A stretch of 34,304 nucleotides of DNA from Ferruginibacter sp. (GTDB lineage: Bacteria; Bacteroidota; Bacteroidia; Chitinophagales; Chitinophagaceae). Under the pieces are notes generated by a model. It was not told where the DNA came from. It saw only the letters and a list, made by a program, of their open reading frames with translations, and searched no databases. Below, piece after piece: positions 5,592-13,500 of this stretch. Numbering within the stretch: the first letter of the stretch is position 1; each line of letters opens with the position of its first letter. The DNA is taken from assembly GCA_019638635.1 (NCBI GenBank), contig JAHBTM010000021.1, forward strand, positions 1 through 34,304, written 5' to 3'. The position numbers and the translations under genes are program-made.

Positions 5592-6362
5592 CTATATGGC
5601 ATTGCCTGATTTGGCACGCAGTTCCTTGAAATACGGAAAGGCAAGGGCCATTCGTGAACCATACCAGCTGAAATATTCACCGTCTGCTAAAATGGTTTGT
5701 TGTTCAGGAAAGTTTTCACGAAAATATGCGAGGTGTTTCTCACGGAAAGGATAGGGTTCGCTGGATAGGAGGATGTATTGCGCCCCGCTGTTGCGTATAT
5801 CCTCGTCAGTTATTTCAGGATAACGGATTTGATTTTCAAAACAATTGCTGAAACCAGCCACACGCATCATATCATTGATAAAAGTATCTCCGCCGATTGT
5901 CATGAACGGATCTTTCCAAATCAGGTATACTGCAGGAATGGGGTCGGGCAGGGTGGAGGGTATTTCTTTTTGAATTCGTTGTATCCATTCCTCAGCCAGC
6001 GCATCACGGTGAGTTAGCCTACCTATATGATCTATCATTTGTAGTGCCTGGGGAATATTATGGATATCGGTTAGCCATACGGGGAATTCCGATGCCAGTG
6101 TATTGATTTGCTCCTGTACATTTTCTTCGCGGTTGGCGATGATTAGATCGGGCTGAAGCGCACGCACTTTTTCAATATGTACTGTTTTGGTGCCTCCTAC
6201 GCGGGGTTTACTGCGAAACCATGTTTCGGGATGTACACAAAATTTGGTGATGCCTGCGGTTTCGGCTTCCAGGTGCAAATTGTACAACAACTCTGTAACC
6301 GAGGGTACCAGCGAAACAATGCGTTGAGGAGGATCGGGCAGGGTGGGAAGTGATAAGAACAT
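5592..6362 (-). CDS. BtuF/TroA-like ABC-type substrate-binding protein (helical backbone metal receptor)
   Basis: A 256-residue protein of the class III periplasmic-binding-protein fold that binds cobalamin, haem or ferric chelates in characterised relatives. Family features: PPQRIVSLVPSVTELLYNL at the start, GITKFCVHP, GGTKTVHIEKVRALQPDLIIAN, IWKDPFMTIGGDTFINDMM and PEITDEDIRNSGAQYILLSSEP. No lipobox and no good signal peptide is seen after the chosen start, as in several Bacteroidota relatives that carry no transporter genes alongside. The frame extends 15 codons further to 6407, but those codons overlap the terminator hairpin of the RNA-like locus at 6373-6415, so the ATG at 6362 is preferred. 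The ligand cannot be told from sequence. No cobalamin-riboswitch box GCCACTG is seen upstream. Confidence 0.8.
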   Translation of the reverse strand: MFLSLPTLPDPPQRIVSLVPSVTELLYNLHLEAETAGITKFCVHPETWFRSKPRVGGTKTVHIEKVRALQPDLIIANREENVQEQINTLASEFPVWLTDIHNIPQALQMIDHIGRLTHRDALAEEWIQRIQKEIPSTLPDPIPAVYLIWKDPFMTIGGDTFINDMMRVAGFSNCFENQIRYPEITDEDIRNSGAQYILLSSEPYPFREKHLAYFRENFPEQQTILADGEYFSWYGSRMALAFPYFKELRAKSGNAI

Positions 6363-6372
6363 GATGCAAAAT

Positions 6373-6415
6373 AAAAAAACTTCCGGGCTATTCATCTGAA
6401 TGAACAATCCGGAAG
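6373..6415 (-). terminator. Intrinsic terminator of RNA locus A
   Basis: On the minus strand CTTCCGG (6415-6409) pairs with CCGGAAG (6386-6380), with an inner TTCAT/ATGAA stem, followed by seven T residues and TATTTT. No protein gene lies upstream on this strand, so it terminates a non-coding transcript, or acts as a leader terminator for the BtuF-like gene that starts 11 bases downstream. Confidence 0.7.
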
Positions 6416-6878
6416 CAATGTATTTCGGATGCCAACTTTAACCCATATCAGTTGGTTTTTCAGGATGGACTTTAACTTTCAGAGGGGGTCTGTATGTTAA
6501 ATAAGTTTATCCTGGTTTCAGTAGGTCTTTTCGCCGGGGTGGGTAGCCGCGGGTTTAGGATAATGGATTACGGTTTTAGGAATCTGGATCTTTCCGGTTC
6601 TTCTCTGTTTCGCTTTCGCGTAACCGTTAGGATATTGGAAGCGGTTATTGGATTTATCTCTCGGTTTTTCGAAGGATGTTGGTCAAAGGATTTGGATGCG
6701 TTGGTCTTTTCTAAGGATATCGTTTATTCACCAAATACTCAAAAAACAAAATAGATAGAAGTTGACTGATATCGGATTTTTGTAGCTTTTCTAAATTGGA
6801 TATTGGAACTACTTTTCTTTTGGCTTTATCAGGATTCTTGGATATTGATTGATATTAATTCGTATCAATCAACTTCTG
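6373..6878 (-). ncRNA. Putative long non-coding RNA, locus A (about 500 nt), paralogue of the locus at 8645-9481
   Basis: The minus strand here has a promoter-like block at one end, a GC-rich intrinsic terminator at the other and no credible reading frame between. The expected 5' end, AGAAGTTGATTGATA, can pair locally with TATCAATCAA about 8 bases on, or over a longer range with ATATCAGTCAACTTCT (6772-6757); the two pairings exclude each other. The 3' third carries ACTGAAACCAGGA, then CCTGAAAAACCAAC followed by a short loop and AGTTGG. All of these blocks recur in the same order in the second locus, while the sequence between them diverges and keeps repeated CCAATATCC words. The RNA would be A/C-rich and G-poor. 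The strand was chosen from promoter and terminator strength; expression is inferred. Confidence 0.55.
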
Positions 6879-6881
6879 ATA

Positions 6882-6912
6882 CAAAGATGCGACGCTTTTA
6901 GGCCTGAATCAA
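6882..6912 (-). promoter_or_regulatory. Promoter-like block of RNA locus A with an overlapping dyad
   Basis: On the minus strand TTG (6912-6910), 20 bases, then CATCTTTG (6889-6882) fits the Bacteroidota TTG-N19/20-TAnnTTTG promoter except for the first base. The TTG overlaps one arm of an inverted repeat AAGAGC/GCTCTT (6911-6928). The same TTG, 20-base spacing, CATCTTTG and dyad occur at locus B. Confidence 0.55.
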
Positions 6913-6929
6913 GAGCGAAATTGCTCTTT

Positions 6930-7418
6930 TTTCGCAATGTCGAAATTGCACATTGCATCGTATATCGGCTATCTTTCACGTAGGGATACTACCTTTTGAC
7001 CTCTCGTATTTTTACGATTTTACGTATAAAACACATTAAAATACCCCTCATATATCAAAAAAATATCAGTTCGTTGCCTCACGCTTGCGGAAAGCACGCA
7101 ACATTTTTTTTCATTTTTCTTACTTTCAAAAGGTTGATTTTTCTTCAATCATCCTCTTTTCCTACCATACATGTTGCACAAAATTCAATCGTGTACCCAT
7201 AATACAGATGATGCTAGCTGAATAAAAAGAAAATGAGACATTAAAAACCTTTGGATGAAGGGCTGCCGGATTGAAGTGGTGCTGCGCAGCAGCTAAACGG
7301 AAAGCCGGAACTAAAGAAGATGAAAGTACTGAAGCCCACAGCCCCAAAGTCTTTAAAATATTATTGCTGTGCTGTTACCTATAATATCCTGCACATCTCA
7401 TCCTCATTCATTAAACAA
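6930..7418. other. Intergenic region upstream of the serine hydrolase
   Basis: No gene can be supported. The region is T-rich, and its short open frame at 6996-7202 has no family features. It contains a hairpin with a T run at 7073-7111 and a short palindrome GCTGCGCAGC at about 7281-7290. Confidence 0.45.
7073..7111 (+). terminator. Orphan terminator-like hairpin
   Basis: GTTGC (7073-7077) pairs with GCAAC (7098-7102), with an inner GCTT/AAGC stem, followed by A and eight T residues. No plus-strand gene precedes it, so it may end a short unannotated RNA or be chance. Confidence 0.35.
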
Positions 7419-7426
7419 TATCTTTG
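7419..7426 (+). promoter_or_regulatory. -7 promoter box for the serine hydrolase gene
   Basis: TATCTTTG is an exact TAnnTTTG match, 28 bases before the ATG at 7455. Confidence 0.5.
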
Positions 7427-7454
7427 CTGAGAGGTCTACTCCCAAATTTTTTTT

Positions 7455-8555
7455 ATGCTTAAATCTATTCAACTTCCCTTGAAGTGGTTGTTGTGTTTAT
7501 TGGTTTGCAGTGCGTGTTCAAAAGACAACAACCCGAATGCGCCCGAACCACCGCCAGCAGAATTTATGTATTTTCCACCGGTTGGCGGGAATGAATGGCA
7601 AACAAAATCGCCGGTTGCATTAGGATGGGATACAGCGCAGTTGAGTGATTTATATCAATACCTTGATCAGAAAAACACCAAAGCGTTTATTATTTTACAC
7701 AATGGCAAAATAGTAGTTGAAAAATATTTTGATGCCTTTACGGCCGACAGTATCTGGTATTGGGCATCTGCCGGTAAAACCGTTACTTCTATGCTGGTGG
7801 GCATTGCACAACAGGAAGGCTTATTAGATATTAATCAAAGCACATCGCAGTATATAGGAGCGGGGTGGACCAGCTTACCATCCGACAAAGAAAATCTCAT
7901 ACAGGTGAAACATCAGCTCACCATGACAACCGGGTTGAATGATGGCGTGGCAGATCCCGACTGTACATTACCGGAATGCCTAACCTATACGGCCGATGCG
8001 GGCACACGATGGGCCTATCACAATGCCGCCTACACGCTGTTGGATAAAGTGATTGAGCAAGTCAGCGGGTTAACGTTCAATCAATACTTTCAACAAAAAA
8101 TACGGAACCGGATTGGGATGAACGGAGTGTGGATTAAAACGCCCAATGCAAACAATGTGTATTTCAGTAATGCACGCAGCATGGCCCGTTTCGGTTTACT
8201 GATGCTCAACCGCGGTACATGGAACACTGAAAATATACTGAACGATTCTGTGTATTTTAATCAGATGATACACACTTCTCAAAACCTCAATGCCAGCTAT
8301 GGTTACCTAACCTGGTTGAATGGACAATCAGGACATATGCTGCCGGGATTGAGGATGGTGCTCTCCGGCTCCATCATTCCCGGAGCGCCCAACGATATGT
8401 ATGCGGCCCTGGGCAAAAACGATCAGAAACTCTATGTAGTTCCATCAAAAAAATTAGTCGTGATTCGGATGGGAGAATCGGCCGGGGCCATTCATTTTGC
8501 ACTGAGCGATTTTGATGATGAAATCTGGAGCCGGTTAAATAGTATCATGCCTTAA
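7455..8555 (+). CDS. Lipoprotein serine hydrolase, beta-lactamase (class C) family
   Basis: A 366-residue exported protein. The N-terminus (KWLLCLLVCSAC, then SKD) is a signal peptide with a lipobox-like CSAC, predicting lipidation at Cys21. The body is a serine beta-lactamase-like/penicillin-binding fold: SAGK at residues 105-108 is the SxxK nucleophile motif, YHN at 188-190 the YxN motif, and LTMTTGLNDG the usual segment between them. Family members include esterases, D-aminopeptidases and 6-aminohexanoate-dimer hydrolases, so neither substrate nor antibiotic resistance can be inferred. The gene sits alone between the two related RNA-like loci, with its own TATCTTTG promoter box. Its 3' end converges on the terminator of locus B. 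Confidence 0.88.
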   Translation: MLKSIQLPLKWLLCLLVCSACSKDNNPNAPEPPPAEFMYFPPVGGNEWQTKSPVALGWDTAQLSDLYQYLDQKNTKAFIILHNGKIVVEKYFDAFTADSIWYWASAGKTVTSMLVGIAQQEGLLDINQSTSQYIGAGWTSLPSDKENLIQVKHQLTMTTGLNDGVADPDCTLPECLTYTADAGTRWAYHNAAYTLLDKVIEQVSGLTFNQYFQQKIRNRIGMNGVWIKTPNANNVYFSNARSMARFGLLMLNRGTWNTENILNDSVYFNQMIHTSQNLNASYGYLTWLNGQSGHMLPGLRMVLSGSIIPGAPNDMYAALGKNDQKLYVVPSKKLVVIRMGESAGAIHFALSDFDDEIWSRLNSIMP

Positions 8556-8644
8556 AAATGGCACTGAAGATACGTATGATTGCATGTGGCAAACAGTAGG
8601 ATTGCATGTGAGCAAACTTTTTTAATACAACCTCACCTACTGGC

Positions 8645-8694
8645 AAAAAAAAACTCCCGCACTGCACCTTTGGGGAAATACAGCGTCGGGAGTT
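8645..8694 (-). terminator. Intrinsic terminator of RNA locus B
   Basis: On the minus strand AACTCCCG (8694-8687) pairs with CGGGAGTT (8659-8652), the stem continuing after one bulged A as CGCTG/CAGTG, followed by nine T residues. Its stem sequence differs from that of locus A while its position after the conserved 3' block is the same. Confidence 0.75.
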
Positions 8695-8876
8695 CAACAT
8701 GTTCTTCCAACTTTTGAGGGTTGGTTTTTCAGGATTGAATTTCTTAAGCGGAACGTTTTCCGATTAAAATGAGTTGTCCTGGTTTCAGTGTTTGGTTTTT
8801 CGCTGCTCAGGAACCAGCAGACGTAGGATACTGTGAATCAAATCCTGTTTTCTATGGGTTTGAATCAGGGTTTTTG

Positions 8877-9268
8877 CCATCATCGCTTTTTAGGGCATAG
8901 GCAGGATATTGGTTTGGTTTTGGTCTTTCGCGCCATCATCGCTTTTTAAGGCATAGGCAGGATATTGGTTTGGTTTCGGTCTTTCGCGCCATCATCGCTT
9001 TTTAAGGCATAGGCAGGATATTGGTTTGGTTTCGGTCTTTCGCGCCATCATCGCTTTTTAGGGCATAGGCAGGATATTGGTTTGGTTTTGGTCTTTCGCG
9101 CCATCATCGCTTTTTAGGGCATAGGCAGGTTATTGGTTTGGTTTCGGTCTTTCGCGCCATCATCGCTTTTTAGGGCATAGGCAGGATATTGGTTTGGTTT
9201 CGGTTTTTCGCGCCATCATCGCTTTTTAAGGCATAGGCAGGATATTGGTTTCATTTTCGGTTTTTCTT
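8877..9268. repeat. Seven tandem 56-bp units inside RNA locus B
   Basis: Each unit begins CCATCATCGCTTTTTA on the plus strand, at 8877, 8933, 8989, 9045, 9101, 9157 and 9213, exactly 56 bases apart, and contains GGATATTGG (GGTTATTGG in one unit). Units differ at only a few bases (GGG/AGG, GGTTTTGG/GGTTTCGG, GTCTTT/GTTTTT), and the last decays at its 3' end. There are no unique spacers, so it is not a CRISPR. Fifty-six is not a multiple of three, so it does not encode a protein repeat. Confidence 0.95.
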
Positions 9269-9483
9269 GTGGTATCGAATTTCTCGATCGTTTTCATAGG
9301 GATTTATACATTTAGCTTTTCAGCTTTGAGTTCTTTGGGGTTACCGCGATGTCAAGGATCTTAAAAAGTAGAAGTTGACTGATATTGGATTGGGTTCTTC
9401 TGGTTCGGATATTGGAACCTCTTGTGGTTCTTTGGATTTTTGGATAATGATTGATAAAACTTCCTATCAATCAACTTCTGGTA

Positions 9484-9514
9484 CAAAGATGCGACGGGTT
9501 TAGTCCTCCATCAA
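9484..9514 (-). promoter_or_regulatory. Promoter-like block of RNA locus B with an overlapping dyad
   Basis: On the minus strand TTG (9514-9512), 20 bases, then CATCTTTG (9491-9484), identical in spacing and -7 sequence to locus A. The inverted repeat AAGAGC/GCTCTT overlaps the TTG here too, with a different loop. Confidence 0.55.
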
Positions 9515-9640
9515 GAGCGATAATGCTCTTTTTACACATTGCAGTTTATACCGCGGCACTCGTAAATAAAACATGAAACAGCCGCGACAGATACGCGCCC
9601 CGCGTTCGTAGATTTACGATACATTGGATGCGTTCGCTCC

Positions 9641-9676
9641 AAAAAAAAGTGCCGCATTCTTTTAAAATGCAGCACT
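9641..9676 (-). terminator. Intrinsic terminator downstream of the cystathionine beta-synthase-type gene
   Basis: On the minus strand AGTGCTGCATT pairs with AATGCGGCACT (one G-U pair) around a short loop, followed by eight T residues. Confidence 0.75.
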
Positions 9677-11460: not shown

Positions 11461-11580
11461 ATTTAATGTAAGAAGAAATTAAGATTGAATAGGGTAATGG
11501 ATAAATCCATTCATAAAATTTGAATATACATCATCGCCAATAAAAGAATTTACACCCATGCCCACGAATTAATTCGTGGG
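11461..11580 (+). repeat. Direct repeat, leader of copy 1
   Basis: Aligns without gaps to 12701-12820 (constant offset 1240) with about four mismatches in 120 bases. This is far more conserved than the arrays that follow, suggesting a functional end sequence or a recent duplication. Confidence 0.9.
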
Positions 11581-11586
11581 CATGGG
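11555..11586. repeat. 32-bp perfect palindrome at the array start, copy 1
   Basis: Each arm is 16 bases, with the centre between 11570 and 11571 (GAATT|AATTC). The right arm is the beginning of the tandem array, so the array starts with an inverted copy of part of its own unit. Confidence 0.9.
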
Positions 11587-11970
11587 TTCATAAATGAATT
11601 TGATGGCATTGGTGCATGAATGAATTTGAGGGCATTGTTTCATGAATGAATTTGATGGCATTGGTGCATGAATGAATTTGAGAGCATTGTTTCATAAATG
11701 AATTTGATGGCATTGGTTCATAAATGAATTTGATGGCATGGGGTTCATAAATGAATTTGATGGCATTGGTGCATGAATGAATTTGAGGGCATTGATGCAT
11801 GAATGAATTTGAGGGCATTGGTTCATGAATGAATTTGAGGGCATTGATGCATGAATGAATTTGAGGGCATTGTTTCATGAATGAATTTGAGGGCATTGGT
11901 TCTTGATTGAATTTAATGGCATGGGGTTCATAAATGAATTTGATGACATGGGTTCATGAATGAATCAATA
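11579..11970 (+). repeat. Tandem array of 26-bp units, copy 1 (14 units plus a partial)
   Basis: The consensus unit is GCATTGGTTCATGAATGAAT followed by TTGAGG. A few units are 27 bases (GCATGGGGTTC variants). Variation is concentrated at the GGT/GAT/TTT positions after GCATT and at G/A in CATGAATG. No spacers are present. Minus-strand open frames across it are repeat-encoded artefacts. Confidence 0.93.
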
Positions 11971-12700: not shown

Positions 12701-12820
12701 ATTTAACGCAAGAAGAAATTAAGATTGAATAGGGTAATGGATAAATCCATTCATAAAATTTGAATATGCATCATCGCCAATAAAAGAATTTACACCAATG
12801 CCCACGAATTAATTCGTGGG
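12701..12820 (+). repeat. Direct repeat, leader of copy 2
   Basis: Ungapped match to 11461-11580. In this copy the plus strand also reads, up to a TAG at 12730-12732, QLAQLVYHLNNLTQEEIKIE, which looks like the C-terminus of a type IIG restriction-modification or adenine methyltransferase protein. Confidence 0.88.
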
Positions 12821-12825
12821 CATTG
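12796..12825. repeat. 30-bp perfect palindrome at the array start, copy 2
   Basis: Each arm is 15 bases, centre between 12810 and 12811. Compared with copy 1, the pair 11557/11584 (C:G) is replaced by 12797/12824 (A:T), so pairing is kept despite the change. Confidence 0.9.
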
Positions 12826-13408
12826 ATGCATGAATGAATTTGATGGCATTGTTTCATGAATGAATTTGATGGCATTGTTTCATGAATGAATTTGAGGGCA
12901 TTGGTTCATGAATGAATTTGAGGTCATGGGTGCATGAATGAATTTGATGGCATGGGTTCATGATTGAATATGAGGGCATTGATTCTTGAATGAATTTAAT
13001 GGCATTGATGCATGAATGAATTTGAGGGCATTGGTTCATGAATGAATTTGATGTCATGGGTTCATGAATGAATTTGAGGGCATGAGTTCATGAATGAATT
13101 TGAGGGCATGGGTTCATAAATTAATTCGTGGGCATTGATGCATGAATGAATTTGATGGCATTGGTGCATCAATGAATTTGAGGACATTGGTTCTTGAATG
13201 AATTTGATGGCATGGGGTTCATGAATGAATTTGAGGGCATTGGTTCATAAATGAATTCGTGGGCATTGATGCATGAATGAATTTGAGGGCATTGGTTCAT
13301 GAATGAATTTGATGTCATGGGTTCATGAATGAATTTGAGGGCATGGGTTCATAAATGAATTTTTGGACATTGGTTAATAAATGAATTTGTGGGCAAGGGT
13401 GCATGAAT
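12818..13408 (+). repeat. Tandem array of 26-bp units, copy 2 (22 units plus a partial)
   Basis: Same unit as copy 1. Two units keep the palindrome-type ending AATTCGTGGGCAT (about 13125 and 13257). Three successive units at 13002-13079 are identical to 13263-13340, showing a higher-order duplication within the array. Confidence 0.93.
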
Positions 13409-13500
13409 AAATCAATTCTATAAAAAAAATCGCACCATCTCATATCCCGTGAATTTATTCATGGGTTAATGCGTACATGAATCAATTCGTGGGCATTGGG
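13409..13500 (+). repeat. Conserved tail of copy 2 and a terminal partial unit
   Basis: Matches the tail of copy 1 (11962-12022) in AATCAAT, the A run, CATCTCATA and GAATTTATTCATGGGTTAAT. CCCGTGAAT (13446-13454) can pair with ATTCATGGG (13457-13465). A last unit-like piece, AATTCGTGGGCATTGGG, ends the region. Confidence 0.75.

Follow-up and report, generated by a model that had tools for sequence, protein, structure and literature searches.

To our knowledge, few global post-transcriptional regulators are known in Bacteroidota. Among long non-coding RNAs, the large ornate RNAs ROOL, GOLLD and OLE are well-known examples. A different design is found in the Csr/Rsm systems where, in the account of PMC7652899, the protein CsrA is sequestered by a non-coding RNA that offers it several binding sites, and synthesis of this RNA is driven by BarA-UvrY. 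GacA is described as requiring an upstream TGTAAG-N6-CTTACA (PMC4950607). In the phylum itself, FopS of Bacteroides is presented as a multicopy RNA of ~65-70 nt, with a single-stranded 5′ part and a terminator, which pairs with mRNAs (PMC11697453). Here we analyse two related minus-strand loci on either side of a serine hydrolase gene in a 34,304-nt stretch of Ferruginibacter sp. DNA (assembly GCA_019638635.1, contig JAHBTM010000021.1; hereafter 'the window'). They are almost certainly members of a large, previously unlisted family of non-coding RNAs. Comparison of sequences allows us to describe this family, its non-coding nature, its helices and module array, the conservation of its promoter, and its co-occurrence and linkage with a response regulator which we call RR-A.

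The two window loci are paralogous. When the long locus was searched against its own genome (2.57 Mb), it retrieved the short locus at 77% identity (E 2.1e-31) and no third copy with E < 0.1. This agrees with the preliminary description, which had proposed two paralogous RNA genes on the minus strand, and all the blocks it had named could be re-located by script. Both loci show a −33 TTG (short 6912-6910; long 9514-9512), a −7 box CATCTTTG (6889-6882; 9491-9484), the 5′ strand of a helix termed P1, AGAAGTTGATTGATA (6877-6863; 9479-9465), its distal strand TATCAGTCAACTTCT (6771-6757; 9384-9370), the blocks ACTGAAACCAGGA (6522-6510; 8789-8777) and CCTGAAAAACCAAC (6464-6451; 8733-8720), and a terminator U-run (6379-6373; 8653-8645). 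From promoter to U-run they measure about 510 nt (short) and 840 nt (long). Fold energy lies below that of shuffled sequences (z −3.75 with 100 shuffles, z −2.51 with 20 shuffles); here as in all scripted tests, shuffles are first-order Markov samples.

The longest open frames on the sense strand of the two loci comprise 19 and 52 codons. Coding potential was further assessed in 104 of 182 elements, namely those with a predicted end at 250-1000 nt. In this sample the longest sense frame has a median of 40 codons vs 42 in shuffled sequence, only 5 members exceed the 95th percentile of their own shuffles, and member lengths are evenly spread over the residues modulo 3. A protein-coding reading is rejected because open frames are not longer than in shuffled sequence, and the earlier view of the loci as non-coding holds. 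The same is true of the remark that they fit no nameable RNA family. No Rfam 15 model matches the window at or above its gathering score. In a permissive search (E up to 10) of positions 6300-9650, four matches were obtained: three with E > 5 and one sub-threshold Flavo-1 match in the intergenic region on the plus strand. On the minus strand inside the RNA genes, this search gave a single lncRNA match (E 5.1). The Flavo-1 match lies between the serine hydrolase and the short RNA (7257-7315, plus strand) and scores 28.3 bits vs a gathering score of 42. The 6S-Flavo RNA (RF01685) is likewise a non-coding RNA of Bacteroidota; it has no match in the window, and none in the own genome, in a search whose positive control matched nowhere either. 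The large ornate RNAs share great length and lack of coding function with the window RNAs, which differ by the absence of Rfam matches, by variable length and by sparse structure. At the level of titles and abstract openings, without supplements, the literature on non-coding or structured RNAs of Chitinophagaceae and Bacteroidetes yielded no description of this family.

Homologues are numerous in related bacteria. A 201-nt query from the short copy matched 50 of the 98 genomes searched, the own genome included, and all matches fall in the own genus except for one weak match of 22 nt. Many genomes of the genus contain several copies, often in tandem. An exact-pattern scan of a public genome collection matched at least 118 stretches. 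Among the matches listed, the named genera are Ferruginibacter, Flavisolibacter, Flavihumibacter, Terrimonas, Niastella, Longitalea, Ginsengibacter and Flaviaesturariibacter, and the others are metagenome-assembled genomes (MAGs) labelled Chitinophagaceae, Chitinophagales, Sphingobacteriales, Bacteroidia, Bacteroidetes or Bacteroidota bacteria. Two elements (L164 and L092) stand on contigs titled as MAGs of Streptomyces griseus and Chitinophaga pinensis, record names which look wrong. In the order, 396 sampled genomes were searched with a covariance model of the 5′ domain (R1), under stricter filters that lose weak matches. Of these, 54 were positive, each with 1-9 matches; they represent 20 of 164 genera, and all belong to the own family (Chitinophagaceae, to judge from contig names). 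Under the same filters, 4 of 395 genomes of the class were positive, including the own genome, and all four belong to the own family. The covariance search suggested in the preliminary description has thus recovered homologues. Many of the sampled genomes are MAGs. Most of the evidence on the hairpin module described below comes from Ferruginibacter; the other genera contribute the covariation of P1 and much of the linkage to RR-A.

The 5′ domain (short 6757..6879, R1 match E 3.7e-16; long 9370..9481, E 2.0e-15; both window sequences are part of the model) is closed by the 15-bp helix P1, in which AGAAGUUGAUUGAUA pairs with UAUCAGUCAACUUCU; in the short RNA, UCC words lie in the loop. In a 70-member alignment (A2; 70 of 116 representatives of 150 extracted domains) P1 is 97.9% paired and nearly invariant. 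Since the helix hardly varies there, its covariation in this set is uninformative, partly because the stretches L059-L176 were fetched by an exact pattern which includes the 5′ strand. A set of 36 divergent matches, mostly from other genera (A4), is more telling: 95.1% of the P1 cells are paired, and 19 cells in five pairs have changed on both sides vs 5.4 in shuffles, in an alignment made to the model structure and leaning towards it. None of 500 shuffles reaches 19, and slid controls give 0-2 such cells. Short words in the loop are also enriched. The word AUCCAA was counted 113 times (17.6 expected) over 61 domains of the window's type and 263 times (38.8 expected) over 135 from other genera. 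Downstream of the distal strand, a run of at least four T within 10 nt is present in 137 of the 156 elements in which this strand was found vs 6.5% of control 10-mers, so that P1 and the following T-run resemble a terminator. An alternative pairing was noted in the 70-member set, between the P1 5′ strand and the proximal UAUCAAUC (92.7% of cells paired; 8 both-side cells vs 1.6 in shuffles). In some members of the divergent set this place is taken by another small hairpin, which does not overlap, and we therefore do not claim a family-wide RNA switch.

The middle regions of the two RNAs have separate designs. In the short RNA this region (6524..6756) is A/C-rich and holds AUCC and GAAAACC-like words, and the hairpin module model (R2) finds no full module there. 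The long RNA carries a seven-copy array at 8863..9266. Tandem Repeats Finder (TRF) reports 7.0 copies with 96% matches and a period of 56 nt (8876-9266), and R2 finds seven matches (8863-9249); the period does not keep a reading frame. Each unit consists of CCAAUAUCC, one half of a stem, an apex CUAUGC-N8-GCGAUGAUG, the other half of the stem, and then GAAAGACC (GAAARACC in the window array). The preliminary description had seen conserved ends and freely changing middles. The second part of this statement needs correction, as the middle of the long copy is a regular hairpin repeat whose covarying module is common to other members.

The structure of the module was examined in 66 of 90 modules (A5), those with distinct stem halves; this choice was made for diversity, which raises variation, and not for pairing. 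In this alignment 88.7% of the cells are paired. The five outer pairs hold 77 cells changed on both sides vs 30.8 in shuffles, none of 500 shuffles reaches 77, and slid controls give 3-21. The apex letters were part of the search pattern (at most one mismatch); the stems were not. Under one apex, stems such as GCC/GGC, GCU/AGC, GUC/GAC, CACC/GGUG and GGUU/AACC substitute for one another. Once the following copy is cut off, an element has 0 to 7 strict modules (n=190); a count of eight in one element runs into the following copy. In 12 genomes of the genus R2 gave 66 matches, distributed over 11 genomes with none in the twelfth, and the seven matches of the own genome all lie inside the long RNA. 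Only two matches, both marginal (E 0.03 and 0.04), are away from known elements, and the others lie on element-bearing contigs. In these 12 genomes the search thus gave no sign of the module as a motif of mRNAs, and such a role was rejected on this basis.

At the 3′ end, both RNAs are predicted to form a structured domain with an intrinsic terminator (short 6373..6523; long 8645..8790). By its sequence pattern, this domain could be identified in 48 of the 190 elements. Aligned for RNAalifold, 23 of these 48 (A7) show both-side changes in six terminator pairs, as expected from the earlier suggestion that terminator structure is under selection; the CAGG/CCUG helix shows one-side variation only. 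Over the family as a whole, support from covariation is found for P1, for the terminator and, at its strongest, for the repeated hairpin module; compensatory changes, the kind of evidence asked for in the preliminary description, occur in all three. Some elements depart from this layout. A variant in L059 (around position 2630, minus strand) has as its body a simple array of ~25-nt units, AAUCCGAAACCUAAAAAAACCAAUU. Elements of L098, L075, L138, L172, L222 and L226 (Flavihumibacter, Longitalea and MAGs) end in a hairpin which pairs CCUCCUGC-like with GCAGGAGG-like letters; these resemble anti-Shine–Dalgarno and Shine–Dalgarno sequences, and no U-run follows immediately 3′.

The promoters are conserved as well. 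In the own genus, 55 of 57 promoters (A6) align without gaps over 88 nt upstream, with TACGA, GTAATTAC, AAAAAGAGCAAT-NN-GCTCTTG and, 20 nt on, CATCTTTG. The short RNA promoter region (6880..6967; promoter model E 1.1e-16 in the own genome) contains TACGA, a degenerate GTAATTAC copy, a GAGC-N6-GCTC palindrome overlapping the −33 TTG, and the CATCTTTG −7 box. That of the long RNA spans 9482..9569 (E 2.3e-15). Except for its first letter, the CATCTTTG box agrees with TAnnTTTG, given as the −7 consensus of Bacteroidota sigma-A in PMC9723704. At fixed positions in 178 promoters of all sources, GTA is found in 145, GTANNTAC in 90, the −33 TTG in 133 and YANNTTTG in 175; the GAGC/GCTC palindrome has all four pairs in 57 and three in 73. 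At E < 1e-4, with the many weaker matches left out of account, the promoter model (R3) identified in 12 genomes only the RNA genes and four further places. Two of these (L287 and L288) hold a second class of short element, GUUGAUUGACA...UGUCAAUCAAC, divergent from a response regulator gene; L289 is an apparent remnant of such an element, and the place in G038 is a short element beside that genome's response regulator.

RR-A is a protein of 221 aa with a receiver and a LuxR-type domain. Its best NCBIfam matches (MctR, PRK15369 and UvrY/SirA/GacA) all fall far short of the curated cut-offs, and we therefore class it as NarL-type without a named subfamily. At E 1e-80 or better, it is present in 65 of the same 396 genomes of the order. 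The RNA occurs in 54 of these 65 and in none of the 331 others (Fisher 4.8e-56); within the own family, the tool-listed genomes divide into 54 with both, none with the RNA only, 11 with RR-A only and 30 with neither (p 7e-16), and both p-values are inflated by shared ancestry. The linkage is also physical. Among the best 30 RR-A loci, 9 have a short element divergent from RR-A within ~700 nt, and this arrangement is seen in several genera. In four loci (L160, L227, L218, L225) a second NarL-type paralogue, 44-48% identical to RR-A, is likewise accompanied by a divergent short element of its own. Upstream of RR-A in the 30 loci, 17 GTAATTAC-like sites were counted vs 2.9 expected in shuffles. 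The 21 loci without an element contain 13 such sites vs 2.2 expected, with a site in 9 of them. The RR-A of the own genome (G000:C50, 88% identity) has a GTAATTAC-like site upstream and no element beside it. RR-A may bind the RNA promoter and switch it. Beyond RR-A and the short element, a protein of 215-245 aa, hydrophobic by eye, is encoded at L287 2198-2935 and L288 2317-2973, and at L302 2866-3513 where no element is present; it has no Pfam match (L287, L288) and no NCBIfam match (L287).

How does this family compare with the regulatory RNAs mentioned at the outset? Like CsrB/CsrC and RsmX/Y/Z, the members are untranslated, carry repeated hairpins or words, and often occur as several paralogues per genome. 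Further similarities are a conserved upstream promoter element with palindromic parts, the genomic link to a NarL-type regulator whose best NCBIfam matches include UvrY/SirA/GacA, although far below cut-off, and the repetition of modules within one RNA, with seven in the long window RNA and a variable number across members. There are also differences. The repeated word is UCC/AUCCAA and not GGA, the hairpin apex is CUAUGC/GCGAUGAUG, the phylum is another one, and upstream TACGA is followed by GTAATTAC and not by TGTAAG-N6-CTTACA, in a comparison of consensus sequences without a search for the exact GacA box. GGA occurs ~0.8 times per 5′ domain vs ~0.5 in shuffles, a slight excess at less than one per domain, and is absent from the module consensus. 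CsrA (PF02599) was found in 0 of 59 genomes, own included, in a search whose positive control was detected in 3 of 14 known genomes; a CsrA sponge is rejected on this basis. Since no CsrA was found in the 59 genomes, a GGA array is lacking and the palindrome is another one, we propose that the RNAs work like CsrB but outside that family.

Our preferred reading, which we put forward as a tentative analogy, is that these are trans-acting titration RNAs (sponges) comparable to CsrB/RsmZ under GacA/UvrY, with a different partner. Every RNA gene would be read from a conserved promoter of its own, of sigma-A type, and the NarL/LuxR-type RR-A would probably act as the switch. The transcript would fold a 5′ domain closed by the 15-bp helix and display many single-stranded AUCC/UCCAAU words; many Ferruginibacter members would also expose hairpins with one conserved apex. 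In members where it is recognised, the 3′ end would be formed by the structured domain and intrinsic terminator. Through its repeated words and hairpins, one transcript could then capture a single kind of partner many times over; an RNA-binding protein is the likeliest candidate, and active RR-A would cause this partner to be withheld from its mRNA targets. Transcription, control by RR-A, the partner and the titration are the parts of this scheme that we infer. The range of 0 to 7 strict modules fits a titrator, which tolerates a varying number. A bolder extension, which we regard as doubtful, is a complete Gac/Rsm-like circuit of Chitinophagaceae with components of its own. Here a NarL-type response regulator would act through palindromic sites in a dedicated promoter to drive a multicopy modular sponge RNA, and this RNA would titrate a putative global RNA-binding protein which reads AUCC/GAAAACC words; the Ferruginibacter hairpin array would be an amplified, high-affinity version.

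The principal rival is a family of base-pairing regulatory RNAs, since FopS, in the account cited, shows that multicopy paralogous RNAs pairing with mRNAs exist in the phylum (PMC11697453). Single-stranded AUCCAAU words would be seeds for UUGGAU-type mRNA sites and the hairpins would just space them. Strong enrichment of short words across genera is what such a family would display, and like FopS/GibS the window RNAs are multicopy, paralogous and preceded by sigma-A type promoters. However, the words vary (CCAAUAUCC, CCAAUUAUCC, CCAAUGUCC) more than one fixed target site suggests, the module stems covary, which implies that structure is kept as well as words, and tandem modules are unlike FopS. 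The build is also different: compared with FopS/GibS as described there, the window RNAs are longer (about 510 and 840 nt) and combine a 5′ domain, with its 15-bp helix, with a middle region and a 3′ domain. We consider the pairing model rather unlikely. A related idea, antisense pairing of CCAAUAUCC with GGAUGUUGG in the GTPase-associated centre of 23S rRNA (one wobble; the sequence is present in L179) so as to interfere with ribosomes, appears very improbable: the adjoining GAUGAUGGC has no complement in the same-genus 23S stretch, which reads GCCACTCAT there, and the words vary. It was dropped on this comparison, a partial one as rRNA is largely masked.

Two further models make use of the structured domains. 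A cis-acting leader or attenuator would consist of P1 and its U-run as terminator and the overlapping proximal hairpin as antiterminator, in control of the downstream gene for a BtuF-like binding protein. The frequent T-run after the distal strand and the alternative pairing in the 70-member set are in its favour, and 54 of the 159 loci do have a BtuF-like gene (of the window's cluster) downstream in the same orientation; the window's own copy starts with an ATG at 6362, 10 nt after the U-run of the short RNA. Yet the other 105 loci, some of them cut stretches, have no BtuF-like frame downstream, the long window RNA converges on the serine hydrolase and so leads into no gene, tandem copies follow each other with a promoter and a terminator each (e.g. 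L039, L042), and the different hairpin in part of the divergent set does not overlap. Such a leader thus seems improbable as an explanation of the family. About as improbable, or slightly more so, is a role as scaffold or structural component in a dedicated ribonucleoprotein, in which modules are assembly sites and nothing is titrated. It would account for modules confined to RNA loci bar the two marginal matches, for covarying stems under one apex (whose letters are partly imposed by the search pattern), and for the 3′ domain shared by 48 elements. A scaffold is harder to reconcile with 0 to 7 strict modules per element, with predicted lengths that vary severalfold and with the lack of a strict module in more than half of the elements.

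Several observations also weigh against titration under RR-A control. A strict hairpin module is missing from 115-116 of 190 elements, some of which are cut by contig ends; the array can therefore not be the universal functional part. Two of the five measures of module covariation (pairs with both-side change, and pair types) are not above shuffles. A base-pairing RNA would conserve repeated words too. The binding partner is a postulated one; CsrA was found in none of the 59 genomes. Transcription of the RNAs is predicted from sequence comparison, and the supposed action of RR-A on the promoter from comparative linkage. Besides the shared ancestry behind both p-values, the RR-A cut-off of 1e-80 was set after a gap had been seen in the list, 11 genomes with RR-A show no RNA, and 21 of the best 30 RR-A loci, including that of the own genome, have no element beside RR-A. 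Lastly, both window promoters carry a degenerate version of the GTAATTAC site.

The genomic surroundings of the family were compared over 159 loci. These comprise 21 window and fetched stretches, 118 from the pattern scan (among the matches listed) and 20 from the model search; some are the same contig reached through two tools and are not independent. A cystathionine beta-synthase-like gene of the window's cluster lies upstream on the same strand in 89 of them. Because the same upstream and downstream gene clusters recur (89 and 54 loci), the data point to an orthologous, mostly vertically inherited chromosomal locus which is not mobile. With the same upstream neighbour in 89 loci, a mobile or viral element is not supported. 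In viral contigs, covered by one exact-pattern scan only, the single match (L177) is to a 22-nt pattern and shows, by eye and by script, neither promoter nor distal strand. Elsewhere in the window, one 26-bp repeat is arrayed head to tail at two places, 11566-11965 (15.3 copies) and 12806-13412 (23.3 copies).

Irrespective of mechanism, an unlisted RNA family with strong covariation is fit for a new Rfam entry. The modules offer a ready-made bait for the putative partner, and a multicopy RNA tied to one response regulator provides a direct handle on the system. If the sponge reading is true, evolution would have reached the Gac/Rsm design once more, with unrelated components.

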